Shown here: positions 3,256-14,398 of the stretch, in pieces
Position numbering within the stretch: position 1 is the first letter of the stretch
Layout of the letters: each line of letters starts with the position of its first letter
Assembly: GCA_947623875.1 (NCBI GenBank)
Contig: CANQII010000004.1
Location: 1 to 44,252 of the forward strand
DNA length: 44,252 bases
Source of the DNA: an uncultured Oscillospiraceae bacterium
GTDB lineage: Bacteria > Bacillota > Clostridia > Oscillospirales > Oscillospiraceae
Reading direction: 5' to 3'
Program-made: the position numbers and the translations under genes
The notes under the pieces: model-generated
Told to the model about the DNA's origin: nothing
The model's input: only the letters and a program-made list of their open reading frames with translations
The model's database searches: none

Positions 3256-5316
3256 ATGGGTAAAATTTTAAACGATGTAAAGGACAATTATCTGCCAAGA
3301 CACGATGATCAGCGAGATATGCTGAAACCGTTCCTACACGGATTCGATATTACTTACGCAGAAGAGGTTCATAGTAATAATACGATCATTTTTATTTATC
3401 TATTAAAACCAGAGAAGCACATGGAAGATTCTTTTGGGTTTAGCAGAGAAATGGTAATGGCGTATTCGCAGTATGACGAATTTCAGCCAAGAGCTTTGCA
3501 GGCAATTAACTCGATTTTTGAGAAGCCTACGTTTAAAAACAGAGTAGATACGTTGAACTGCTTTGTGATCTCCAAGGATCCAAACGTAATTCATAATGCA
3601 GGCGTTGTATATTTTGAAGGCAATTGGTGCCGATCAATCATTCCAATCGTATATAATGATGTCATCGAAAACAAAAACGATGCATATTATATACGAAACA
3701 AGCTAAGGGAAAACTTGTATGGAATTGATCTATTCGGAAATATGCTTCCACTGAAAGATGACACATCTTTCTTTGGAAGACAAAGAGTTGTTGCTAGGTA
3801 TGTTGATTCGGTAAAACGAGTTGAGAACAGAGGCCTATTTGGACTTAGAAAGACAGGAAAAACGTCTTTGCTATTTAAAATCCAACGTGTCATAGAAGAA
3901 CAAAATCTTGGAAAAGTGTTGTATTATGATTGTAAAGATCCATCGTATCGAAATCTACATTATTATGAGTTTTTGTCAGTTATTGCAGAAGATATATCAA
4001 ATGAACTCGAGATTCAAAATGAGAAAGCCTCTGGGAAAAGTGAAATTATCAAGAAATTCAAAAAAGTTATAAGATTCGCTTATAAAAAGGGCATCAAAAT
4101 AGTTATCATGTTTGACGAGATAGAATATATCTCTTTCAATTCAATAACGGATGAGCATTGGAAAAATGAATTCATAGATTTTTGGCAGATAATGTGGTCT
4201 GTACAAAGCACAGATAGGAATTTAATGTTTATTCTGTCCGGGGTTAATTCCAGCATATCAGAGACGGATGTGATAGGAAATGTACAAAATCCGCTCTTTA
4301 GTATTGTTGAAGCTGAATATTTGCAAGGCCTAGAATACGAGGATGCAAAAAACATGATACGTACTCTGGGAAAACGAATGGGCTTAGACTTTGAATACGA
4401 TGCTATTGATTTATTGTACAATCAATACAATGGTCATCCAATGCTGATGCGTTTAGCATGCAGTTATATTAATAAACAATATACAACAGAAAAAAGACCT
4501 ATTGATATAACCAAGCAAAAGATAGAAAGAATACAAGATGATATAGATGTAGAACTTTCTTATTACTTTAAGCATGTTGTTTCGGAAATTGAGCTGTTTT
4601 ATAAAGATGAATATGACCTTTTTGGTATGCTTGCGTCAGGACAACGAAAAGATTTTATAGAATGTTCGGAGTTGGCTGATTCAGGAAAACATTTGTATGA
4701 TTATGGGCTGGTGGCAAAAGATAAAAATGGAAAACCCTATGTTAAGCTTCCTGTTGCTGGTAGATATGTTGCAATGCAATTAGCAAAAAAAGAAAACCGG
4801 ACTTCACTTTACAAGATAGTGGAAAGAGACAAAAGAGCAAATTGGATAAAGGACATCGCAAGTTCAATTTTGCGTGATTTTCGACAACTTGAAGTATACA
4901 TACAGGATAAGAAAATGCCAAGCTTATTCGGGGATAATTCCTTTCCAGAAGCAGACAAGTTTTCTCAAGTTAAACCAGTAGAAGTAGAGGATGACTTTGA
5001 CAGGTTTATTAATGTGTGTAATAGATGCTTTGTTGAGTCCATAAAAAATTATGGAAAGAGTGTTGGAAATGACGGCTACTTGGACAGCAAAATAAAAGAA
5101 AACTATCCTTCACTATATGCCCTGATAGACAAAATCAGAACGTACAGAAATAAGTCTGATCATCTAAAACTTACTTCAAAAAACGTTGAAAAGTATAGGA
5201 TTTATTGGAATGAAGATACAAAAGGAATTCATGAAATTGACGGTATTTATTTTGCTGTACAGCAGAAACTTCTTGAAGATTTACTAGAAGCGATTCATGA
5301 TGAACTGGATATATAA
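3256..5316 (+). CDS. STAND/AAA-like NTPase with C-terminal HEPN-type RX4H domain; candidate defence protein
   Basis: A 686-residue protein in three parts. Residues 1-170 form an N-terminal domain I do not recognise. An archaeal-ATPase/STAND-like NTPase follows, with an FFGR entry motif near residue 172, Walker A GLRKTGKTS at 196-204, Walker B IVIMFDE at 282-288, and a winged-helix-like region (GLVAKDKNGKPYVKLP). The C-terminus (about 550-686) contains RTYRNKSDH, where R631-N632-x3-H636 fits the HEPN RNase signature. In STAND systems, NTP-driven oligomerisation switches on an effector; here the effector would be a HEPN RNase. The ATG at 3256 has CGGAG eight bases upstream; an in-frame GTG at 3175 overlaps the previous stop but lacks a site. 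The DNA is visibly AT-rich compared with both flanks, suggesting transfer. The defence role is inference. Confidence 0.75.
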   Translation: MGKILNDVKDNYLPRHDDQRDMLKPFLHGFDITYAEEVHSNNTIIFIYLLKPEKHMEDSFGFSREMVMAYSQYDEFQPRALQAINSIFEKPTFKNRVDTLNCFVISKDPNVIHNAGVVYFEGNWCRSIIPIVYNDVIENKNDAYYIRNKLRENLYGIDLFGNMLPLKDDTSFFGRQRVVARYVDSVKRVENRGLFGLRKTGKTSLLFKIQRVIEEQNLGKVLYYDCKDPSYRNLHYYEFLSVIAEDISNELEIQNEKASGKSEIIKKFKKVIRFAYKKGIKIVIMFDEIEYISFNSITDEHWKNEFIDFWQIMWSVQSTDRNLMFILSGVNSSISETDVIGNVQNPLFSIVEAEYLQGLEYEDAKNMIRTLGKRMGLDFEYDAIDLLYNQYNGHPMLMRLACSYINKQYTTEKRPIDITKQKIERIQDDIDVELSYYFKHVVSEIELFYKDEYDLFGMLASGQRKDFIECSELADSGKHLYDYGLVAKDKNGKPYVKLPVAGRYVAMQLAKKENRTSLYKIVERDKRANWIKDIASSILRDFRQLEVYIQDKKMPSLFGDNSFPEADKFSQVKPVEVEDDFDRFINVCNRCFVESIKNYGKSVGNDGYLDSKIKENYPSLYALIDKIRTYRNKSDHLKLTSKNVEKYRIYWNEDTKGIHEIDGIYFAVQQKLLEDLLEAIHDELDI

Positions 5317-5357
5317 TGCATAGTATGTGATTGGTGGATATGTTGGAATATATAGAG

Positions 5358-5774
5358 CTATATTGCTACATCATATATCTCTATTTTTGCAATATCATCA
5401 ATCTTTATCACTGTGTTGGCTTGAAAAATTAATGTTCCTGTAAGCGAATTTATCGAATTTAGTATCTCTTTAACGGTTGCATATGCGCCCCCAGCCTTAC
5501 GGCTGTCCGGCACAAAGTAGGTCACAGACACCTCGGGATGTTCATCCAGATGATCCCTCAGATACTGCAGTTTCTGATCGATCATTGCCTTGGCCTCTTC
5601 TGTGAGTTCTATCCGCTCCTCCGTCAGTCTTGCTGTCTCCTCTACGGCATCCCCATATCCTGTTAGAGCTGCAAACGGCATAAACTGCGCTGCTCTGGCT
5701 GATACAGGCATATGGGGATGCCTTGTGGATTGGTGGTGGGGAAGATGAATGATATCCTCATAGCTGCTTGCCAT
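5358..5774 (-). CDS. YolD-like protein, partner of Y-family polymerase
   Basis: A 138-residue YolD-like protein. Its N-terminal part carries the family features ARAAQFMPFAALTGYGDAVE and a charged helix (ETARLTEERIELTEE), and it ends in a small beta region. In Firmicutes such genes usually sit beside UvrX/YqjW-type translesion polymerases, as here (polymerase stop at 5790, 15 bases away). The YolD product is thought to act with that polymerase in the damage response. The ATG at 5774 is chosen because AAGGAGG lies ten bases upstream; a GTG at 5783 touches the Shine-Dalgarno sequence. The last ~40 codons (roughly 5358-5475) are AT-rich while the rest is GC-rich, so the gene looks like a mosaic joined to the neighbouring AT-rich insert. 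The encoded tail still resembles the family tail. Confidence 0.8.
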   Translation of the reverse strand: MASSYEDIIHLPHHQSTRHPHMPVSARAAQFMPFAALTGYGDAVEETARLTEERIELTEEAKAMIDQKLQYLRDHLDEHPEVSVTYFVPDSRKAGGAYATVKEILNSINSLTGTLIFQANTVIKIDDIAKIEIYDVAI

Positions 5775-5789
5775 CTGTAGCACGCCTCC

Positions 5790-7313
5790 TTATGCTCTGT
5801 GTCCGCCGATCTGCTGATTGCGCTCTTTTGCTGTTGCGCCTTCTTCCAGGCTGGTGCCTTTCAAGATGGCGTTCTTCCCGAACTTCCGGCGGATCTCCAA
5901 TACCGCCTGCTGTTTACTCTTCTCCTTGGCCTGTGCAGCCTTTTTCTGCTCTTTCTCTTTTGCTAGGGCCTCATAGTCCGTGAAAAGGTCCAACTGTTCT
6001 GGCTCTTCTGTGGGCACATCAGATTCCCGGATCACATGGTTGGCCCCCAGATACAGCTGTCGTATCAAGAGGTTTCGGTCTGTGATCTGCTCATAGAGGG
6101 ATACCGCTGCCGAGACGATCTTCTTGTCGGAAGAGGTGTGTCCGCCAGGAATGTTGAAACTTCCATGGGAGGATTTTGGGATATCCCGTCCGTAGCGGTC
6201 CTGGGATACCGCTCCGTGATAGGCCTTTCTCCGGTTGGGATCCTGCAGCACGGAGTTGTCATAGCGGACGGACAGTGTCAGCTGATCGGTTACCAACCCT
6301 TTCTCCGCCAGATCCAGGGTCATCATGTCTGCCATCTCCCGGACCACCAATCGCGCCTTCTCGAAAGAGTAAGGACAAGGAAGCACTTGTCCGCTGCTCA
6401 CACTGTTGTTCTCCGGTTCATAGGCTTGAATGTCTGCAATGGTGCAAGGCTCCCAGCCCCAGGCATGATCAATGAGAAGCTCTGCGTTTACCCCGAACAT
6501 CTTGTACAGAAGTTCTTCGTTGTAGAAATCAGCGCTGGTGCCGAGAGAGCATCTTGCGATATCGCCCATGGTGTGCAGTCCCACAGATTCCAGCCGTTTT
6601 GCATACCCTCGTCCAACCCGCCAGAAGTCCGTCAGAGGAGTATGAGACCAGAGTTTCTCACGGTAGGACATCTCATCCAGTTCGGCGATCCGCACGCCGT
6701 TCTTGTCCGGCGGGATGTGCTTTGCCACGATGTCCATGGCAACCTTGCAGAGGTACAGGTTGGTCCCGATGCCTGCTGTAGCGGTGATGCCGGTGGTCTT
6801 CAAGACATCTGCGATGATCCTCTGGGCCAGTTCTTTCACTGTGCAGTGATAGGTGGCGAGATAGTGGGTCACATCCATAAACACCTCATCGATGGAGTAC
6901 ACATGGATGTCCTCTGGTGCCACATACTTCAGGTAGATTTGGTAGATCTCCGTGCTGCGCTTCATATAGAGGGCCATCTGCGGCCTGGCTACCACGTACG
7001 AGAGCGATAGTCTCGGATCCGCTGCCAGGGCAGGGGCGTTAGAGGATTCCCCGGTGAACTTGTGTCCCGGGGCTTTCGCCAGTCTTCCGGAGTTGATCTC
7101 TCGTACCTTTTGTACCACCTCAAAGAGCCGGCATCTTCCAGGCAGACCATATGCCTTCAGCGATGGTGTTACCGCCAGACAGATGGTCTTCTCTGTCCGG
7201 CTTTCGTCTGCCACTACAAGATGCGTTGTCAGGGGATCCAGACCCCGCTCCAGACACTCCACGGAGGCGTAGAAGCTTTTGAGGTCGATGGCGATACAGG
7301 CACGCTGCGGCAT
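5790..7313 (-). CDS. Y-family translesion DNA polymerase (UvrX/DinB-like)
   Basis: A 507-residue Y-family polymerase that would replicate past damaged bases. The catalytic palm shows AIDLKSFYASVE with Asp10 and the Phe14/Tyr15 steric-gate region, and YSIDEVFMDV with Asp142-Glu143 as metal ligands. ITATAGIGTNLYLCKVAMD is the usual thumb/palm motif. A C-terminal QLDLF at 440-444 is a textbook sliding-clamp binding peptide, followed by a lysine-rich tail. The ATG at 7313 has GGAGGC a few bases upstream. The YolD-like gene follows 15 bases after the stop, so the two are probably cotranscribed. No obvious LexA/DinR box was found upstream. This two-gene cassette is common on mobile elements and in accessory islands of Clostridia, and may be cargo of the region on its left. 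Confidence 0.93.
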   Translation of the reverse strand: MPQRACIAIDLKSFYASVECLERGLDPLTTHLVVADESRTEKTICLAVTPSLKAYGLPGRCRLFEVVQKVREINSGRLAKAPGHKFTGESSNAPALAADPRLSLSYVVARPQMALYMKRSTEIYQIYLKYVAPEDIHVYSIDEVFMDVTHYLATYHCTVKELAQRIIADVLKTTGITATAGIGTNLYLCKVAMDIVAKHIPPDKNGVRIAELDEMSYREKLWSHTPLTDFWRVGRGYAKRLESVGLHTMGDIARCSLGTSADFYNEELLYKMFGVNAELLIDHAWGWEPCTIADIQAYEPENNSVSSGQVLPCPYSFEKARLVVREMADMMTLDLAEKGLVTDQLTLSVRYDNSVLQDPNRRKAYHGAVSQDRYGRDIPKSSHGSFNIPGGHTSSDKKIVSAAVSLYEQITDRNLLIRQLYLGANHVIRESDVPTEEPEQLDLFTDYEALAKEKEQKKAAQAKEKSKQQAVLEIRRKFGKNAILKGTSLEEGATAKERNQQIGGHRA

Positions 7314-7354
7314 ATGCGGGGCCTCCTTTCCAAATGGACCATACCAATCTGTTT

Positions 7355-7389
7355 ACACCGGCCAGCCGTGAGGCTGGCCGGTGTCTTTT
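7355..7389 (+). terminator. Perfect hairpin, possible terminator
   Basis: ACACCGGCCAGCC at 7355-7367 pairs perfectly with GGCTGGCCGGTGT at 7372-7384 around a GTGA loop, and CTTTTG follows on the plus strand. No plus-strand gene ends here, and on the minus strand (between asnB and the polymerase) no T-run follows. It may instead be a leader hairpin ahead of the polymerase gene or may insulate it from asnB read-through. Confidence 0.45.
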
Positions 7390-7406
7390 GAAATTGGTTT
7401 ATTTTT

Positions 7407-7436
7407 ATTGTATTCTTATTGTCTGCTGTATCACAA
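7407..7436 (-). promoter_or_regulatory. Candidate sigma-A promoter for the polymerase-YolD pair
   Basis: Reading the minus strand, TTGTGA (7431-7436) and TACAAT (7407-7412) are separated by 18 bases and lie about 95 bases upstream of the polymerase start. The rest of the 310-base gap 7314-7623 is AT-rich and holds nothing else recognisable except the hairpin at 7355-7384. Confidence 0.4.
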
Positions 7437-7623
7437 TCAGGCAAACTTTAGCTCTGTTCAGTCCAAGTGAGTTTCCCTCTCGGCTGCACATAGTTTGCAC
7501 GGAGTATCGAGATGCTGCTGAAAGAATATATGAAGCAAAACATCAGACAACGAAAAAGGACTAATTTTATTTAGCTTGCTGTATTTTGTTTTACAATATG
7601 CTTTCTGACACAACAAATCTTGC

Positions 7624-9501
7624 TTATGCGCTCCGCCGTACCGGCTCCGGAGGCACAAAGGGCTCTGCGCCGCACTCCTCGGGGAAGTACACTCGATACC
7701 AGATGAGGAAGGAGAGCACTGTGTAGAGCTTGCGGTGCTCATAGCTCTGCCCGTTGTAGTGACGATCCAACATGTCCAGAAGGGCCTTCTGATCGAAGAA
7801 CCGAGCAGTGTAGTCTGCTTGGATGATCTCCTTGGCCCAGTTGTAGTACTTCTCCTCCCGAAGCCATGCGATGAACGGGACAGGGAAGCCCTTCTTGGGG
7901 CGGTTGATCCACTCGTCCGGCAGCACCGGTTTGGCGGCCTCCCGGAGGGGTACCTTGGTCACCATCTTGCCGGTCATCTTCTGCTTGCTGGGGATGTCCC
8001 GGGCTACTGCCCATACTTCCCGATCCAGATAGGGGACACGGAGCTCCAGGGCATTGGCCATGGTCATACGGTCTGCCTTGCGGAGGATGTCCAGCGGCTG
8101 CCAGAGGTGCAGGTCCAGATACTGCATCTGCACCAGGTCGTCCTGGTCCTGGACGGCATCGAAGTAGGGGGCTGTTACATCACGCCAGGTAAGTCCGCCC
8201 TGGAACTCTGGGGTGAGGATCTTCTCCGCCTCATCCTCATCGAAGATAAAGGCCTGTCCCACAAAGTACTCCCGCACGTCCTGAGATGCCTTGATCAGGA
8301 AGCCCTGGCCGTGGAATTGGGGCAGTTTCTTGGCCACGCCGGCTGCTGCCTTCCGGATGGCTTTCGGCATCTTCTTGTAAGCCCGGAAGAGCCTGGTGGT
8401 GTGGTAGAGCTCATAGCCGGCGAAGAGCTCATCGGCCCCTTCGCCAGACAGCACTACCTTCACGTCCTTGGAAGCCAGCCTGGAGAGGAAATACAGAGGA
8501 ACGGTAGAGAGGTTGGCATTGGGCTCATCGGCAAAGTACTGGATGGCAGGGAGGATGTCAAAGAACTCCTGGGCGGTGATCACCTCAGAGTAGTTCTTCA
8601 AGCCGATCTCTTTGCAGAGTGCCTGCGCCTCAAAGGTCTCGTTAAAGCCCTCCCGCTCAAAGCCCACGGAGTAGGTCTTATCTGGCCTAGATAAAGCTGC
8701 GATCAAGCTGGAGTCGATACCGCCAGACAGGAAGGACCCCACCTCCACATCGCTGATCTCGTGTGCCTTAACAGACTCCTTTACGGTGTCCAGGATCTGC
8801 TTGGCCCGGTCCTCCAGGGGCATATCATGGGGATCGAAAGTCAGCTGGGCGAAATGGTAGAACTCGGTGCAGCCGTCCCGGTGGAGGAAATAGTGACCGG
8901 GCAGCAGCCGATAGACTCCCTTCAGAAAGGACTCTGTCAGGGCGGAGTACTGGAAGGTGAGATACAGCTTCAGGGCGTCCTTATTCAGTTCCTTGTGGAA
9001 CGCCGGATGGGGCAGAAAGCTCTTCAGCTCAGAGCCGAAGAAGAAGGTGTCTCCCATGGTGGCGTAGTACATGGGTTTGATACCAAACGGATCCCTGGCG
9101 CCGTATAACTCCTGTTTCTCCTTGTCCCAGATCACAAAGGCAAACATGCCCCGGAGTTTCTCAGACACATGGACGCCCCATTGGGCGTATCCCTGGAGGA
9201 TAACCTCGGTATCGGAGTTGGTGGCAAAGGTTCTTCCCTGGGCCTGCAGTTCCGCCCGCAGTTCCTGGAAGTTATAGACCTCGCCGTTGTATGCGATGAT
9301 ATATCTGCCGTCTGCGGTCTGCATAGGCTGGCTGCCGCCGGCGATATCGATGATAGAAAGTCTGTGGTGGGCGATGGCGCAGTGATCATCCACGTAGTAT
9401 CCTTTGCCGTCTGGGCCTCTGTGGCGGATGGTGTTTCCCATGGCCTCCAGAACCTTGCGGTCCGGGGCAGAGCGGGAAACGAAACCGGTGATGCCGCACA
9501 T
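7624..9501 (-). CDS. asnB: Asparagine synthetase (glutamine-hydrolysing)
   Basis: A 625-residue class II asparagine synthetase, which makes asparagine from aspartate, ATP and glutamine-derived ammonia. It starts MCGITGF, so Cys2 is the N-terminal nucleophile of the glutaminase domain (residues 1-~210: RHRGPDG, YNGEVYN, SDTEV, RDPFGIKP). The synthetase domain follows, with the pyrophosphate loop SGGIDSS at 259-265 and LSGEGADELFAGY further on. Length is normal for bacterial AsnB. GGAGG lies about nine bases before the start. A strong promoter (9617-9645) leaves a leader of about 105 bases with a hairpin. No T-box elements were seen, so regulation by tRNA-Asn is not supported. AsnB-like enzymes also amidate peptidoglycan or other substrates in some clusters, so housekeeping asparagine synthesis is likely but not certain. 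Confidence 0.95.
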   Translation of the reverse strand: MCGITGFVSRSAPDRKVLEAMGNTIRHRGPDGKGYYVDDHCAIAHHRLSIIDIAGGSQPMQTADGRYIIAYNGEVYNFQELRAELQAQGRTFATNSDTEVILQGYAQWGVHVSEKLRGMFAFVIWDKEKQELYGARDPFGIKPMYYATMGDTFFFGSELKSFLPHPAFHKELNKDALKLYLTFQYSALTESFLKGVYRLLPGHYFLHRDGCTEFYHFAQLTFDPHDMPLEDRAKQILDTVKESVKAHEISDVEVGSFLSGGIDSSLIAALSRPDKTYSVGFEREGFNETFEAQALCKEIGLKNYSEVITAQEFFDILPAIQYFADEPNANLSTVPLYFLSRLASKDVKVVLSGEGADELFAGYELYHTTRLFRAYKKMPKAIRKAAAGVAKKLPQFHGQGFLIKASQDVREYFVGQAFIFDEDEAEKILTPEFQGGLTWRDVTAPYFDAVQDQDDLVQMQYLDLHLWQPLDILRKADRMTMANALELRVPYLDREVWAVARDIPSKQKMTGKMVTKVPLREAAKPVLPDEWINRPKKGFPVPFIAWLREEKYYNWAKEIIQADYTARFFDQKALLDMLDRHYNGQSYEHRKLYTVLSFLIWYRVYFPEECGAEPFVPPEPVRRSA

Positions 9502-9537
9502 ATCCTGAATCCTCCTGTATCTTGCGGTGTATGGGTA

Positions 9538-9557
9538 CCGAAGGTATTATCCTTCGG
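9538..9557 (-). other. asnB leader hairpin
   Basis: CCGAAGG at 9538-9544 pairs with CCTTCGG at 9551-9557 around a six-base loop, within the presumed asnB leader and about 35 bases before the start codon. It could tune translation or transcript stability. No known riboswitch or T-box motif was recognised around it. Confidence 0.35.
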
Positions 9558-9616
9558 ATTGGTATCCAATTGGGGATGGCTGCTGTCCTATTGGAACAGG
9601 TCTCAATCCGTTTGCT

Positions 9617-9645
9617 AGTATACACAGATTTTTCTGGATTGGCAA
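9617..9645 (-). promoter_or_regulatory. asnB promoter
   Basis: On the minus strand TTGCCA (9640-9645) and TATACT (9617-9622) are 17 bases apart, a near-consensus sigma-A promoter. It lies about 115 bases upstream of the asnB start and downstream of the terminator of the preceding glycosidase gene. Together these account for most of the 407-base gap 9502-9908. Confidence 0.7.
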
Positions 9646-9745
9646 GTGTAATATGCAAAATGGTTCAGCAGGGGAATACGCCGGAAAAGTTCCAAATCGG
9701 ATGGAATCTATGCTGGAAATGGCGCATTTCTGCTGTACTCCGTTT

Positions 9746-9788
9746 AAAAAGACGGCCCGCACCGCTCATCTGGGGCAGCGGTGCGGGC
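9746..9788 (-). terminator. Rho-independent terminator after the GH4 glycosidase gene
   Basis: A 12-bp perfect stem (9755-9766 with 9777-9788) with a ten-base loop is followed on the minus strand by CGTCTTTTT. It lies about 120 bases past the glycosidase stop and separates that gene from asnB. Confidence 0.75.
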
Positions 9789-9908
9789 AAGGATTTCTTT
9801 TGCAGTGTGGTTGGTCCGGCGTGCGAATGGGTGCAGAGGACTAAATAGAACTGTGTTTAGAACAGCTAAAGTATTTTTAGAAGGTAAATAAAGATAATAC
9901 AATTCCAA

Positions 9909-11228
9909 TCAGAACACCGGGTAGCCTGCTGCGGTGTGGGCAGCGATCAGGTCATCGCAGAGGGACACGATCTCATCGGTGCCCAGATTGGCCCCGCAGA
10001 CAGGATCCATCATGGCGGCCATGATGGCCTTCTCTCGGCTCTGCTCCACAGCTGCTTCGATGGTGAGCATCTGGCAGTATATGTTGGTGCTGTTCATGGC
10101 GGCAAGCTGCGTGGGCAGCGGGCCTACCATGGTGGGGGTGATGCCGCTGTTGTCCACCATGCAGGGGACTTCCACGCAGGCGTCCCAGGGCAGATTGGAT
10201 ATGGCTCCGTGGTTCAGCACGTTGCCGCCGATGCGGTAGGGACGACCGGTCTGGATGGCCTCCATGATGTGGGATGCGTACTCGGTAGAGCGGGTGTGCT
10301 GTACCTTGCCGCCGGCCATGATCTCCTGATACTGCTTCTCCCAGCCGTTGATCTGGTTCACGCAGCGCCGGGGATACTCGTCCAGGGGAATCCGGAAGTG
10401 CTCCACCAAGTCCGGACGGTTGGGTTTCAGGTAGAAGGAATTGTACTCGGCATTGTGCTCGGAGCTCTCGGTGCAGTAGTAGCCGAGCTTCGCGATGTAG
10501 TCGTAACGGACCATGTCCAGGTGATCCCGGCGGGCGTTGGCCTCGGCAGCCCGGCGGCGGATCTCGGGGTACAGGTCATAGCCGTCTTTGTCCCGGATCT
10601 CCAGCAGCCACGCCATGTGGTTGATGCCGGCGATCTTCTCAGAGCGGCCCTCCAGTTTGTCCTCCATGCCCAATTGCTTCAGCAGGTGGGAAGTGCAGAC
10701 TTGCACGCTGTGGCATAGGCCCACGGTCTTTACATGGGTGAACCGCAGCATATAGCCTGTGAGGATGGCCATGGGATTGGTGTAGTTCAGAAACCATGCA
10801 TCCGGACAGACTTCCTCCATGTCCCGGGCGAAGTCCTTCAGCACATGGATGGTGCGCAGGCCCCGGAAGATGCCGCCGATGCCCAGGGTATCACCGATGG
10901 TCTGGCGCAGTCCGTACTTCTTGGGTACCTCGAAGTCAATGATGGTGCAGGGGTCGTAGAGGCCTACCTGGATGGCATTCACCACAAAGTCCGCGCCCCG
11001 CAGGGCATCTTTCCGCTGCTCCACACCCAGGTATTGGCGCACCGTGGCCCGGCCCTGATTGATGGTGTCGTTCATGGCCGTCACCATGGCATAGGACTCC
11101 TGCAGGCGCTTGGCGTCGATGTCGTATAGGGCGATCTCCACATCGTGGAAGGGGTCTGTCAGCATGGTGTCGCCGGTGATGTTTTTGGCAAATACGGTGC
11201 TGCCAGCACCCAGGAAAGTGAGTTTCAT
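9909..11228 (-). CDS. Glycoside hydrolase family 4, alpha-galactosidase-like
   Basis: A 439-residue GH4 enzyme. The family hydrolyses glycosides by an NAD+- and Mn2+-dependent redox mechanism and acts in the cytoplasm on imported sugars. The N-terminal Rossmann motif reads FLGAGSTVFAKN; GLCHSVQ and GINHMAW are GH4 metal/substrate motifs typical of MelA/LplD-type alpha-galactosidases and alpha-glucuronidases. LNYTNPMAI is another family block. The start has AAAGGCGG upstream, and a good promoter lies at 11261-11289. It stands alone with its own terminator and no sugar transporter beside it, so its substrate importer is elsewhere. Alpha-galactosidase is the best guess, but GH4 specificity (galactoside or glucuronide) cannot be settled from motifs alone. 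Confidence 0.88.
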   Translation of the reverse strand: MKLTFLGAGSTVFAKNITGDTMLTDPFHDVEIALYDIDAKRLQESYAMVTAMNDTINQGRATVRQYLGVEQRKDALRGADFVVNAIQVGLYDPCTIIDFEVPKKYGLRQTIGDTLGIGGIFRGLRTIHVLKDFARDMEEVCPDAWFLNYTNPMAILTGYMLRFTHVKTVGLCHSVQVCTSHLLKQLGMEDKLEGRSEKIAGINHMAWLLEIRDKDGYDLYPEIRRRAAEANARRDHLDMVRYDYIAKLGYYCTESSEHNAEYNSFYLKPNRPDLVEHFRIPLDEYPRRCVNQINGWEKQYQEIMAGGKVQHTRSTEYASHIMEAIQTGRPYRIGGNVLNHGAISNLPWDACVEVPCMVDNSGITPTMVGPLPTQLAAMNSTNIYCQMLTIEAAVEQSREKAIMAAMMDPVCGANLGTDEIVSLCDDLIAAHTAAGYPVF

Positions 11229-11260
11229 ATTGCTTGCCGCCTTTCCGGTATGTTGCTCTC

Positions 11261-11289
11261 ATAATACCGGCAGCGGGGACAAAGTGCAA
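11261..11289 (-). promoter_or_regulatory. Promoter of the GH4 glycosidase gene
   Basis: On the minus strand TTGCAC (11284-11289) and TATTAT (11261-11266) are separated by exactly 17 bases, 33 bases before the start codon. This is a sigma-A-type promoter with a short leader. Confidence 0.65.
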
Positions 11290-11355
11290 GACACAATCGG
11301 CTATAAAATCCGCAGGATCGTCCAGAAAAGGGAAAATAGACGGGGATACAGGCCT

Positions 11356-11523
11356 TTAGACGGTGTCTGCTTCCGGATCAGGTTCGGTGTCGGGCTCCTG
11401 GTGCAGCGCCTCCTGCAGTACCTGGACGGCCTTAGCAGCCTCCTCTGGGGACTGGGCGGGCAGCCACACATGTTTTGCCGGCACCGGGCCTACGGACTCA
11501 GACCAGGGTGATGTAGTCTGCAC
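11356..11523 (-). CDS. Small overlapping ORF after the amidase (55 aa), or frameshifted amidase tail
   Basis: A frame in the +1 register relative to the amidase runs through its stop codon and ends at 11356. Its second half (PAKHVWLPAQSPEEAAKAVQ, then an acidic DTEPDPEAD tail) looks like real protein. The GTG at 11523 has AGGAGG nine bases upstream, inside the amidase gene; an ATG at 11529 is only three bases from the same site. This would give a 55-residue translationally coupled product. The alternative is that it was once the C-terminal extension of the amidase and a frameshift detached it. No slippery sequence like the prfB site is seen at the amidase stop. No known family recognised. Confidence 0.35.
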   Translation of the reverse strand: MQTTSPWSESVGPVPAKHVWLPAQSPEEAAKAVQVLQEALHQEPDTEPDPEADTV

Positions 11524-12238
11524 TGGCATAGCCCTCCTGGCCATCGAAAGAAACCAGATACCAGCCCTCATAGCGGTTCAGAATGGTCAGTCGGGTACCA
11601 TCATAGGCCTTGGCGATCACCGGGGCACTGGTGCTGGGCTTGGACCGGATGTTCAGATATCCCCAGTCCACGTCTACGATCCCTTTCCGGGGCTCTGCTG
11701 GGTTCAGGAACGGGATGCCGAAGTACTCACACAAACCCAGGACGATGGCTCTGGCGGCCTCATTGATGTGGTTCTTGATCCAGGTGGCATCATCCGGGTT
11801 ATCGTGATAGCCCAGCTCGATGAACACAGACGGCGCTCTGGGCTGCCGGACCTCGCCGATGGCGGTGGTGGCCTCCAGACGGACCTGATTGGGCAGTGGA
11901 TAGACCTCCTTCAGGTTCAGCGCCACCAGATCGGCTGCTCGCCGGCCATTGGTGCTGCCGGGGTAGTAGTAGATCATGATCCCACGGTGCTGGCCGTAGC
12001 TGGAAGCCGGGGATGCATTGGAGTGCAGGGCCAGATGTAGGTCGTAGTTGCCGGCGTTGGATGCCCGGATGGATGAAGCAGCTGTCATATCGGGGGTGTT
12101 GCGGGTAAAGCGGATGCCAGAAGCGTTGAGATAGGGCACCATGGCATCCGCCAAACGGTTCATCCACTCCTCTTCGGTGCCGCCGTTGACGTACTCGTTG
12201 GCCTCCTGGGTGGATGGGGACAGATAGATGTTTGGCAT
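11498..12238 (-). CDS. N-acetylmuramoyl-L-alanine amidase with C-terminal SH3b domain, no signal peptide
   Basis: A 246-residue protein with an Amidase_3-like domain (residues 3-~175) and an SH3b cell-wall-binding domain (~190-246: GYLNIRSKPS, EGWYLVSFDGQEGYA). It should cut the amide bond between MurNAc and the stem peptide. HSNA at 72-75 holds a zinc-ligand His, EEE at 22-24 supplies an acidic ligand and Glu141 in VFIELGYHDN is the catalytic Glu. The first zinc site, normally D-x-G-H, reads LSPSTQE here. There is no signal peptide, as in mother-cell lysis or phage-type amidases. The ATG at 12238 has GAGGAGGG nine bases upstream; the frame extends further up but without protein-like sequence. 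A role in mother-cell lysis is inference from the missing leader and the sporulation background. Confidence 0.85.
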   Translation of the reverse strand: MPNIYLSPSTQEANEYVNGGTEEEWMNRLADAMVPYLNASGIRFTRNTPDMTAASSIRASNAGNYDLHLALHSNASPASSYGQHRGIMIYYYPGSTNGRRAADLVALNLKEVYPLPNQVRLEATTAIGEVRQPRAPSVFIELGYHDNPDDATWIKNHINEAARAIVLGLCEYFGIPFLNPAEPRKGIVDVDWGYLNIRSKPSTSAPVIAKAYDGTRLTILNRYEGWYLVSFDGQEGYASADYITLV

Positions 12239-12283
12239 AGGAAAAACCCTCCTCGGGTGTATCCTATGCAGCGGGGACGGGTT

Positions 12284-12314
12284 TGGACAGCGGCAGGGGA
12301 CCTGCCGCTGTCCA
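12284..12314 (-). other. 14-bp perfect hairpin in the amidase leader
   Basis: TGGACAGCGGCAGG at 12284-12297 pairs perfectly with 12301-12314 around a GGA loop, about 45 bases upstream of the amidase start. No T-run follows on the minus strand, so it is not an ordinary terminator. It may control expression or mRNA stability of the amidase. Confidence 0.5.
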
Positions 12315-12421
12315 GGCACACCGAAGGCCTGCTTGCCCATTGGAATGCAGGGAACAGCGGGGAAAATGGCACAAACTATCCTTTCGCCGGATTGCTGGGT
12401 GGAAGGCTGTACCTGGTGCCA

Positions 12422-12480
12422 ATAGACTGTCTCCTGGATACGGCTGCACACAGTACAGCTTCTCTTACCCAGCAGTCTAT
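12422..12480 (-). other. Inverted repeat in the amidase upstream region
   Basis: ATAGACTG at 12422-12429 and CAGTCTAT at 12473-12480 form an 8-bp perfect stem closing a 43-base loop. With the hairpin at 12284-12314 this suggests a folded leader. I do not recognise a known riboswitch class; the conserved core of the cyclic-di-AMP riboswitch, common before amidases, was not seen. Confidence 0.3.
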
Positions 12481-12720
12481 GGGAGGAATCCTCAGCCTGC
12501 TGTGTACGATGGTGAAATGCTCTGGTATACGATGCCTGGAGTCATCAAGCATGACTGAAATGGATTGGTTGTAAAAATTACAAGAGAATTTTGGCTGGAT
12601 GAGCACATGCAGAGATTCCGAATGCAAACGACTTGCAAAAATTTCGAGCGCTGTCATTTCACAAGGTGCAATGCTTCTGATTGTAATAATTACAGGCACT
12701 AACCTTTGGCGAACATCCGA

Positions 12721-12762
12721 AGAAAAAGGTTTGCTGTGCCGGGGCTCAGAACAGCAAACCTT
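12721..12762 (-). terminator. Terminator-like hairpin at the left end of the array region
   Basis: AAGGTTTGCTGT (12726-12737) and ACAGCAAACCTT (12751-12762) form a perfect 12-bp stem with a 13-base loop. On the minus strand it runs into TTTTTCTTC. No gene ends nearby on that strand, so it would end transcripts coming from rsmA (stop at 13550) or from an unannotated RNA in the array region. Confidence 0.65.
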
Positions 12763-12990
12763 AGAAAGTGCTTTGGGTGTATAGAGGGAGAAGTGTAGGA
12801 AGAGGACAGATGCAGTACAAAGGTGGAAGACGCGGAAGAAACGGGAAGCGGTTGGACGGGACTCTGACTCAGATGGAAGCAGTGCAAAGCAGAGACAAGC
12901 ACCTGGTTGGGATAGGTCGATACTGAATCTTCTGGCTGGAGTTGGCCTAATGTGCTATGCCGCTGTTCTATTTTGTCAGACACAGGAAAA

Positions 12991-13148
12991 ATAGGCGAAT
13001 TGAACCAGATCTCAGCTGAGATTGATGTCGTCTCGCTTAAGCTGGCCTACCCGCCTATACAAATGCAGAACCGCGATACGCTATGCCAAAAATTCCTGTA
13101 AAGGAGTGGTACTTTACAACCGATCTGGGCTGACCCAGGAATACCACT
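12991..13148. other. Cluster of inverted repeats (possible structured RNA)
   Basis: ATAGGCG (12991-12997) pairs with CGCCTAT (13052-13058), enclosing the palindromes ATCTCAGCTGAGAT (13009-13022) and GCTTAAGC (13035-13042), like a multi-branch fold. A second fold pairs AGTGGTA (13105-13111) with TACCACT (13142-13148) around an inner CTGGG/CCCAG hairpin (13125-13138). Both lie between the terminator-like hairpin at 12726-12762 and the phased 15-mer array, and may belong to a non-coding RNA. The direction of transcription is uncertain. Confidence 0.4.
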
Positions 13149-13549
13149 TGTAATAATTACGAGAAGCTGTCTATAAGTGTTCCTATAAAAACATGCTAAG
13201 TGTGCTACCGATTTTGCAAAATGTACTTACTTCTGACATTGTATGTAAAAACTACGAGTATCCGGTATTTGCAAAAATTACGAAAATCAATCTGTACATA
13301 CATCTACAGGAATATTCTGAGCATGCTATCAATTTCATAGAACAAGCCCGTTATAGGCACAGTATGTAAAAATTACAATAATAAACCGCTTGTAAAAATT
13401 GCGAATGATCTGAGAAAAGTGGAGGCACATGAGAATACCATGCACACAGTCAGTGTAACAAAAATAGCCTGTTTATCGCAATACTTGTAAAAATTGCAGG
13501 CGCCGATCACCTGCAATAATTACGAATGACAACGAAAAAGTTCCGAAAA

Positions 13550-14398
13550 TCACTGCATTTGGATAGCTAAGTCTGAGAATTGCTCCAGGGACAGTGCCTC
13601 TCCCCGGATGTTCTCCGGTAGTCCGCAGCTGATGAGAATCTCCCGAATCTGATCTTTTGTGTGTCTGGTGCCATAGGCAGAGAAGAGAGCATTCAGCAAG
13701 GTTTTTCTCCGCTGTCCAAAGGCTGCCCGAACAACAGGGAAGAGAATATCGGGCTCAGCCGGTACGATTGGTGCCTCCCGCAGCACCATGTGCACTACGG
13801 AAGAGGTCACTTTGGGGGGCGGCAGGAAACAGCCAGGCGGGACGTCAAAGAGGGAAGTGCACTCTGCGTGATACTGACACAGCAATGTAAAAGCGCCGTA
13901 GTCTGCTGTGCCAGGAGCAGCACAGATCCTTCTCGCCACTTCTCGCTGTACCATCACGGTAACGGAGTGAAACAGCCCGCTTTTCAGAATGTGGGTGAGC
14001 ACTGGGGTGGTGATATTATAAGGTAGATTGGCACAGACATGAGGTCTTAGTCCAGGCAGGTGGGTCTCTACCAGTTCCTGCAGATCCAGCTTCATCACGT
14101 CTCCGGATACTACCTCAGCATTAGGAAGATCAGATAAAGTCTCCGCCAATACCGGCAGCAGAGTCTTATCCAGCTCTACCGATACCACTTTCTCGGCTCG
14201 CTTTGCCAGTTCCCGGGTCAGGCAGCCGATGCCGGGACCGATCTCCAGAACCCCATCTCCCGGGCCCAGGTCGGCGCTCTCAGCGATCTTCCTGGGTACC
14301 CAGTCTGCAATGAGAAAGTTCTGCCCCATGGACTTGGAGAAGTGAAATCCGTGGCGGCCCAGCAGGTCTCGGATCTCATGGATGTCTGTGAGGTTCAT
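13550..14398 (-). CDS. rsmA: 16S rRNA dimethyladenosine transferase RsmA (KsgA)
   Basis: A 282-residue RsmA/KsgA. It dimethylates two adjacent adenosines in helix 45 of 16S rRNA using S-adenosylmethionine, a late step in 30S assembly. Motifs: KSMGQNFLIA at the N-terminus, the SAM loop VLEIGPGIGCLT, the catalytic block NLPYNITTPVL, and the C-terminal FGQRRKTLLNAL. Length is typical. Its ATG overlaps the stop of the trmD-GNAT gene by four bases (ATGA), so it is translationally coupled as the last gene of rimM-trmD-rsmA. In many Firmicutes rsmA lies near the origin with rnmV, so this placement is a local rearrangement. No terminator follows directly; the phased 15-mer array begins 25 bases past the stop. 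Confidence 0.96.
   Translation of the reverse strand: MNLTDIHEIRDLLGRHGFHFSKSMGQNFLIADWVPRKIAESADLGPGDGVLEIGPGIGCLTRELAKRAEKVVSVELDKTLLPVLAETLSDLPNAEVVSGDVMKLDLQELVETHLPGLRPHVCANLPYNITTPVLTHILKSGLFHSVTVMVQREVARRICAAPGTADYGAFTLLCQYHAECTSLFDVPPGCFLPPPKVTSSVVHMVLREAPIVPAEPDILFPVVRAAFGQRRKTLLNALFSAYGTRHTKDQIREILISCGLPENIRGEALSLEQFSDLAIQMQ

Follow-up and report, generated by a model that had tools for sequence, protein, structure and literature searches.

Clustered directed repeats are typical of partition and replication loci, a DnaA box has the sequence TTATCCACA, and a CRISPR array combines near-identical repeats and unique spacers of like size with cas genes. In the chromosome of E. coli, DnaA titration is linked to datA, DARS and a high-density DnaA-box region, according to an excerpt of PMC12371093, and synthetic decoy sites can regulate genes by titration in E. 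coli, according to an excerpt of PMC7826281. Here, a cluster of 15-bp sites was analyzed in the gap between rsmA and an amidase gene of an uncultured, gut-type Oscillospiraceae bacterium, in a window of 44,252 nucleotides (the whole stretch of DNA analyzed). The initial annotation had set this cluster apart from CRISPR, and we agree, since its 15-bp words are variable, its spacers measure 11 and 80 bp, and the 80-bp ones are related to each other. No cas genes were seen by eye among the open reading frames of the window.

Ten clear copies of the 15-mer were found in the gap, all on the plus strand when read with the consensus of the initial annotation; about eleven had been counted, and a candidate eleventh copy, at 12607, scores only 2.1 bits (Table 1). 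Allowing up to three mismatches on both strands of the window, 15 matches were obtained, some places being counted twice (both strands), against a mean of 2.28 and a maximum of 6 in 100 shuffles. The exact spacings reported for these copies were reproduced, with 121-bp steps between 13148, 13269, 13390 and 13511 and between 13243, 13364 and 13485, and 26-bp steps in the pairs 13243/13269, 13364/13390 and 13485/13511, so that the sites are spaced by 26, 95 or 121 bp. The G+C content is 45% in the gap and 35% in the block from 13148 to 13525, compared with 56% in the window. Open reading frames lying wholly inside the gap reach at most 107 amino acids and overlap across both strands, and the gap was judged by eye to be noncoding. 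Elsewhere in the window, an imperfect 24-bp tandem repeat occupies positions 5363 to 5408 and contains a two-mismatch match to the 15-mer at 5378 on the minus strand.

Table 1. Features of the array locus, leaders and island genes (window coordinates unless a locus or contig is named; G000 is this genome and G012 its nearest relative)
Feature	Position	Strand	Basis or remark
N-acetylmuramoyl-L-alanine amidase with SH3 domain, neighbor	11498..12238	-	control by the array hypothetical
rsmA-amidase gap	12239..13549	.	1,311 bp, amidase start to rsmA stop, the start at 12238 being an ATG picked by eye in a frame still open up to a GTG at 12451
Site 1, out of 121-bp register	12569..12583	.	pattern match and matrix score
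Site 2, out of 121-bp register	12633..12647	.	pattern match and matrix score
Site 3, out of 121-bp register	12681..12695	.	pattern match and matrix score
Intrinsic-terminator-like element	12726..12762	-	12-bp perfect stem, then T-rich tail; fold z -2.9
121-bp unit 1	13148..13268	.	site 13148-13162, 80-bp spacer, site 13243-13257, 11-bp spacer
121-bp unit 2	13269..13389	.	site 13269-13283, 80-bp spacer, site 13364-13378, 11-bp spacer
121-bp unit 3	13390..13510	.	site 13390-13404, 80-bp spacer, site 13485-13499, 11-bp spacer
Lead site of truncated fourth unit	13511..13525	.	pattern match
rsmA (ribosomal RNA adenine dimethylase), neighbor	13550..14398	-	PF00398, E 2.5e-55; same strand as amidase
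Leaders, L009	1-240, 4117-4356		sequence alignment
Leader, L010	3172-3419	-	sequence alignment
Leaders, L048	4595-4850, 5569-5815, 7077-7330, 11087-11345		sequence alignment
Island, L009 (G000:C273)			Pfam and PADLOC
Island, L048 (G012:C117)	4852-13720		Pfam and PADLOC
First gene	C273 site 1		Sel1 repeats (Pfam)
First gene	C273 site 4137		cut by contig end
First gene	C68 site		Sel1 repeats (Pfam)
First gene (G012)	C117 site 4615		DuOB (Pfam)
First gene (G012)	C117 site 5589		Sel1 repeats and GreA_GreB N-terminal domain (Pfam)
First gene (G012)	C117 site 7097		Sel1 repeats (Pfam)
First gene (G012)	C117 site 11107		no Pfam family

As seen from the comparison of the units, the 121-bp register is one two-site unit present three times head to tail, in copies that have diverged. 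Whole units are identical at 69/121 (units 1 and 2), 63/121 (units 2 and 3) and 57/121 (units 1 and 3) positions, that is, 47 to 57%, and they keep the purine/pyrimidine class at 106, 90 and 95 of the 121, respectively; the other top-listed places in the window do not exceed 48/121 identical positions or a class agreement of 85. The 80-bp spacers, which had been described as not obviously similar, are identical in register at 41/80, 35/80 and 31/80 positions where about 21 are expected, values attained by none, 0.055% and 0.64% of 20,000 letter shuffles and by 0, 0 and 1 of the 80 other offsets. Their summed identity of 107 compares with 64.4 +/- 6.7 in dinucleotide shuffles, 0 of 5000 of which attain it. 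The earlier description does hold for the 11-bp intervals (2/11, 3/11 and 3/11 identical). With the sites masked, lag 121 was the best of the tested lags between 13100 and 13550 (z of 5.4, the next being 2.9), and over 12540 to 13550 only lag 679, based on fewer positions, gave a higher fraction. The similarity between units spans from near 13130 to near 13530. Tandem Repeats Finder at a minimum score of 40, which needs copies about 70% alike, did not report the array. Since a diverged tandem duplication explains the period, the geometric constraint invoked in the initial annotation is not needed.

A gapped alignment is slightly better for units 2 and 3 (29 versus 25) and for units 1 and 3 (16 versus 13), with gaps equal on both sides, indicating that only the net unit length was kept; the 121-bp register itself served to recognize the units, which bears on the constancy of that length. 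Between the spacers of units 1 and 2 (13163-13242 versus 13284-13363), 30 transitions and 9 transversions were counted, the class being kept at 71/80 positions. Transition-only mutation was considered as a general rule and dropped, given that units 2 and 3 (18 transitions and 27 transversions) and units 1 and 3 (27 and 22) are rich in transversions.

The sites are better conserved than the sequence between them. In-register pairs are identical at 111/135 positions in the sites and at 107/240 in the spacers (Fisher P of 6e-13, or 2e-7 when only adjacent units are compared); the test counts nonindependent pairs as independent, so the P values are too small, while the difference itself is large. 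This contrast suggests that purifying selection may have acted on the sites while the spacers drifted. At 10.5 bp per turn, steps of 26, 95 and 121 bp correspond to 2.48, 9.05 and 11.52 turns, and the values of 2.48 and 11.52 disfavor cooperative binding on the same face of the helix. Of the proposal that the array reflects cooperative protein binding or DNA wrapping, the part that survives is a cluster of binding sites, which is supported by the occurrence of the motif at promoters, whereas same-face cooperativity is not favored by the spacing.

To place the 15-mer in its genomic context, the assembly was searched with the pattern of the initial annotation; the assembly comprises 392 contigs and is 75% complete, so that sites may be missing from it. 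With up to one mismatch, eight places were found, six in the array and one each on contigs C273 and C68, compared with one for the reversed control. Both places outside the array lie at promoters of the island type described below, and a further copy at base 1 of C273, where the contig breaks, marks a third island promoter, which is cut. At up to two mismatches on both strands, 37 matches were obtained versus 13 for the reversed control, and the array formed the densest group; the 15-mer is thus not equally frequent throughout the genome, a possibility that the initial annotation had left standing against the array.

Together with four sites on contig C117 of the nearest relative (G012, whose RsmA is 91% identical), seven promoter sites were available, three of them in this genome. 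At all seven, a -10-like hexamer (TATAGT, TATACT, TATACT, TAAATT, TACTAT, TATGAT and TATCAT) follows the 15-mer after exactly 20 nt and agrees with TATAAT at 4 or 5 of 6 positions; ATTACAAGT is invariant across the seven sites, and no clear -35 element was seen by eye. The composite pattern ATTACAAGT-N18-TATAMT gave five matches with up to one mismatch in 42 genomes of the genus, all at island promoters, and two mismatches added the other two known promoters, with matches elsewhere no commoner than in the reversed control. Among the four loci with the next-closest ClpP genes (in G023, G043 and G042 and a second one in G012), the promoter arrangement was absent, and only G023 had candidate sites, two in number, with 3 and 4 mismatches. 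Separately, a two-mismatch copy of the 17-mer at L240:950-966 (contig C130 of this genome) is followed about 20 nt later by what was judged by eye to be the start of an exported-looking frame; this copy is possibly another operator, or a match by chance.

Behind each of the seven promoter sites runs a conserved leader of roughly 150 to 200 nt, with invariant blocks that include GCGTGCCAAGG and AACGCC. The leaders are homologous, with 79% and 76% identity to the leader query within this genome, and the fixed 20-nt spacing therefore does not amount to seven independent facts. RNAalifold predicted 30 pairs in the leaders, 3 of them with two-sided changes, and a covariation term of +2.04, so that a structured leader RNA is possible; Rfam gave no credible match in the leader loci L009 and L010. 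A search of the window, the gap and the two island contigs with Rfam likewise returned no match at the gathering score and none that was credible, the gap showing two weak microRNA-family matches up to an E value of 2, both in 12279-12319, outside the array. This result, and the position of the word upstream of the -10 at seven promoters, where it would therefore go untranscribed, argue against the earlier idea of repeated RNA modules. A reading of the 15-mer as an RNA hairpin was also dropped, because on each strand some copies lose the pairing, judged by eye.

The genes served by these promoters begin with a Sel1-repeat gene at 4/7 promoters, and in both genomes the island also holds ClpP, a TraG/VirD4-like ATPase and two DUF488 proteins. 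In G012, PADLOC assigned PDC-M45A to the DuOB protein (E 1.1e-13) and PDC-M45B and PDC-M45C to the DUF488 proteins (2.4e-47 and 1.9e-43), so that all three parts are present. In this genome, PDC-M45B (9.8e-49) and PDC-M45C (2.2e-53) were assigned, and the A part was not seen on the short contig. A PDC label denotes a predicted rather than a tested defense candidate. Two frames of 377 amino acids (L048 11331-12464 and 12587-13720) had no Pfam or PADLOC family at an E value of 0.001. Searches with island proteins did not place the island, the TraG-like protein giving 2169 plasmid records, all below 60% identity, and a DUF488 protein giving one phage record at 27%. Among the literature matches listed, none described a Sel1/ClpP/DUF488 island or such an array, which is weak evidence of absence.

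The array and the island promoters share one motif. A scoring matrix built from the seven promoter sites alone, without the array sites, gave 9/10 array sites higher scores than any non-site position of the window, the best of which, 19104, reached 12.1 bits; the remaining site (13243) scored 11.5 bits, above the next non-site position at 10.3. At a threshold of 10.6 bits, letter-shuffled gaps gave a mean of 0.37 matches and a maximum of 4 in 300 shuffles. The same independent-site matrix favors the plus strand at 7/10 array sites and the minus strand at 3/10, which does not bear out the earlier claim that all copies share one orientation; a minus-strand promoter orientation of the array, which had been considered, was dropped once these mixed strands were obtained, and no promoter direction is claimed for the array. 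At 20 nt beside the array sites, on either strand, no hexamer matched TATAAT at more than 3/6 positions. At 19 or 21 nt, 5/40 positions reach 4 or 5 of 6, where 4 is attained at about 5% of positions in the gap. The best -10 candidate in the array is TATAAA (5/6), 21 nt after site 13148 on the plus strand, and one array promoter is possible there.

Next, the array was sought in relatives. Using the amidase start signature, which was sought after the rsmA stop in 29 other loci of the genus and recognized in 21, the rsmA-amidase gap was found to measure 49 to 267 nt in 20/21 loci, 1251 nt in G012 and 1311 nt here. Since a long gap occurs only here and in G012, either more than 1 kb was gained in their line or the gap became shorter in the other lines. 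Similarity between these long gaps is confined to the part beside the amidase (best windows of 57/60 and 42/60, compared with 34/60 at best elsewhere), and the G012 gap (L074) holds no site cluster, its best score with the promoter-only matrix being 6.9 bits. G012 thus has four such promoters in its island and lacks the array, indicating that the system does not need the array. Terminator-like stems lie past the rsmA stop in both long-gap species, at about 790 nt here (12726-12762) and about 375 nt in G012 (L050, about 9432-9475, by eye). These stems suggest an unannotated transcript or an extended 3' region. A simple terminator scan restricted to loops of 3 to 8 listed none, not even the element at 12726-12762.

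In a DNA search of 40 genomes, this one included, G012 matched over the amidase-side end of the gap (query 1-183) and G016 over a stretch of 57 letters adjoining the amidase, and no part of the array was recovered in relatives. In the same number of relatives, again including this genome, the one-mismatch pattern gave scattered sites and no array with the same spacing; clustered matches were found in two genomes, with two or three within 2.3 kb (G034 C13 and G025 C27). The 26-bp paired-site pattern occurs at three places in this genome, and in 299 other genomes of the family (without G012) it matched one lone 3-mismatch pair (G060), compared with two control matches. Apart from that pair, the spacing is not shared by any other of the genomes searched, the outcome that the initial annotation had named as counting against it. 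A scan of up to 1.5 kb past rsmA covered 29 other genus loci (L074-L102), rsmA having been found in 37/42 genomes, of which 30 loci, the present one among them, were listed; in L080, L084, L087 and L102, which are truncated by contig ends, the scanned stretch includes part of rsmA. At 10.6 bits, 25/29 loci had no site, L096 and L101 had one, and L079 and L093 had two, compared with ten in the window, and no cluster was found; the L079 pair, past a short rsmA-amidase gap, was not the 15-mer on reading. The best lag windows in the 29 loci reach 75 to 96/200, versus 110/200 at lag 121 here. In viral contigs, the exact pair pattern gave 0 matches and the exact 17-mer 10 single ones. Overall, one incomplete genome among those searched carries the array.

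Taken together, we favor a reading, at a probability of about 0.4, in which the ten array sites are tandem-duplicated operators of the island's putative regulator, most likely used for titration. One dimeric DNA-binding regulator would bind the ten array sites and the same motif at the Sel1-repeat, ClpP, TraG-like and PDC-M45 (DuOB/DUF488) island promoters. There, the operator is placed just upstream of the -10 at a fixed distance, suggesting that the regulator probably activates island transcription; a dimeric activator would fit this fixed distance, the dyad form of the site and the absence of any obvious -35. In the rsmA-amidase gap, a two-site stretch of 121 bp was copied in tandem, about three times over, after which the spacers drifted and the sites were presumably kept by selection. 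Since the array has no -10 at the island spacing, it probably does not start transcription in the island's manner. It might instead hold regulator molecules, as datA does, and lead to a sharper or delayed switch-on of the island, and a sink that lowers the free regulator seems to us the simplest promoter-free use of such an array, which offers ten operators compared with the three promoter copies found in the assembly. A stricter version, in which the array is a dedicated chromosomal sponge for the regulator of a candidate anti-phage island, with ten operators that lie mostly in tandem-duplicated units of constant length on another contig than the island, and in which the island fires only when the regulator exceeds the sink, strikes us as unlikely.

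Among the alternatives, the one that we would rank next, though we doubt it, is local regulation, in which the cluster controls a nearby transcript (for example an unannotated RNA ending at the terminator-like stem 12726-12762) or the amidase 330 to 1290 bp away via looping or cooperativity. The array is upstream of both the amidase and the minus-strand terminator-like stem, and the gap of G012 is also long and has a GC-rich palindrome followed by Ts (by eye); nevertheless, promoter-like sites between 12200 and 13650 are not clearly above chance (4 versus 2.4 +/- 1.6), the array sites lack the -10 at 20 nt, the G012 amidase has no upstream array and shares similarity only in the part of the gap beside it, and 20 other loci of the genus manage with their short gaps. 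The excess of more than 1 kb over those loci, the restriction of the array to one species among those searched, the strong divergence of the spacers and the sites at 12569-12695 standing out of register would also be expected of a relic, that is, a duplicated operator region that perhaps arrived with the gap-widening DNA and is now functionless and decaying. We regard this as rather unlikely, given that the sites are conserved well above the spacers and that nothing resembling the island leader turned up on the array contig C4, the three matches to the leader query lying elsewhere in the genome.

The word can also be written as a 7-1-7 dyad, which raises the question of Zur, PerR or another regulator of the Fur family. 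Site 13148 and some island sites are nearly 7-1-7, site 13148 differs by one base from TCGTAATNATTACGA, which we take to be the Bacillus subtilis Zur box, and each of the two genomes has one Fur-family gene. However, that sole gene lies beside phosphate-transporter-like genes (by eye) with no good site there in either genome, the only listed nearby match (2 mismatches, about 1 kb off, in G012) is inside a probable coding sequence (by eye), and several array sites break the dyad (by eye), leaving this identification improbable. Far less credible still is a partition or replication element (parS, iterons or a TubC-like locus). Although repeats in clusters invite that comparison, and the initial annotation had proposed a centromere-like or iteron-like locus, nothing was found in its support: among the open reading frames of the contig, which has housekeeping genes, no partition gene was seen by eye, and the same motif stands singly at promoters elsewhere.

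With the preferred reading of the array as operators of the island's regulator, an orphan noncoding array is now linked to a regulon, and its tandem descent removes the false puzzle of a geometric constraint. It further suggests that binding-site duplication elsewhere in the chromosome could set the threshold of a candidate defense island, and the array offers a defined DNA bait for finding the putative regulator.

Compared with described systems, the array resembles a minisatellite or VNTR in its head-to-tail 121-bp copies and differs in that these are 47 to 57% identical, escape Tandem Repeats Finder and embed sites that are better kept. Class II activator promoters of the CRP/FNR type are like the island promoters, whose sites end 20 nt before the -10 with no clear -35 (by eye), and unlike the array copies, which are without that -10. 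With Fur-family operators (Zur, PerR and Fur boxes), as far as an excerpt of PMC4324032 describes them, the sites share an AT-rich core and, in some copies, a 7-1-7 near-palindrome, whereas the array has asymmetric arms, forms a tandem cluster away from the promoters found and shows no link to the single Fur-family gene. Finally, in relation to the excerpt of PMC12371093, the array differs from datA-type loci in that its motif is not a DnaA box, its units are diverged tandem copies and it is absent from the nearest relative; what it has in common with them is the clustering on a chromosome of sites for a single regulator, here a putative one, whose titration is the role proposed.
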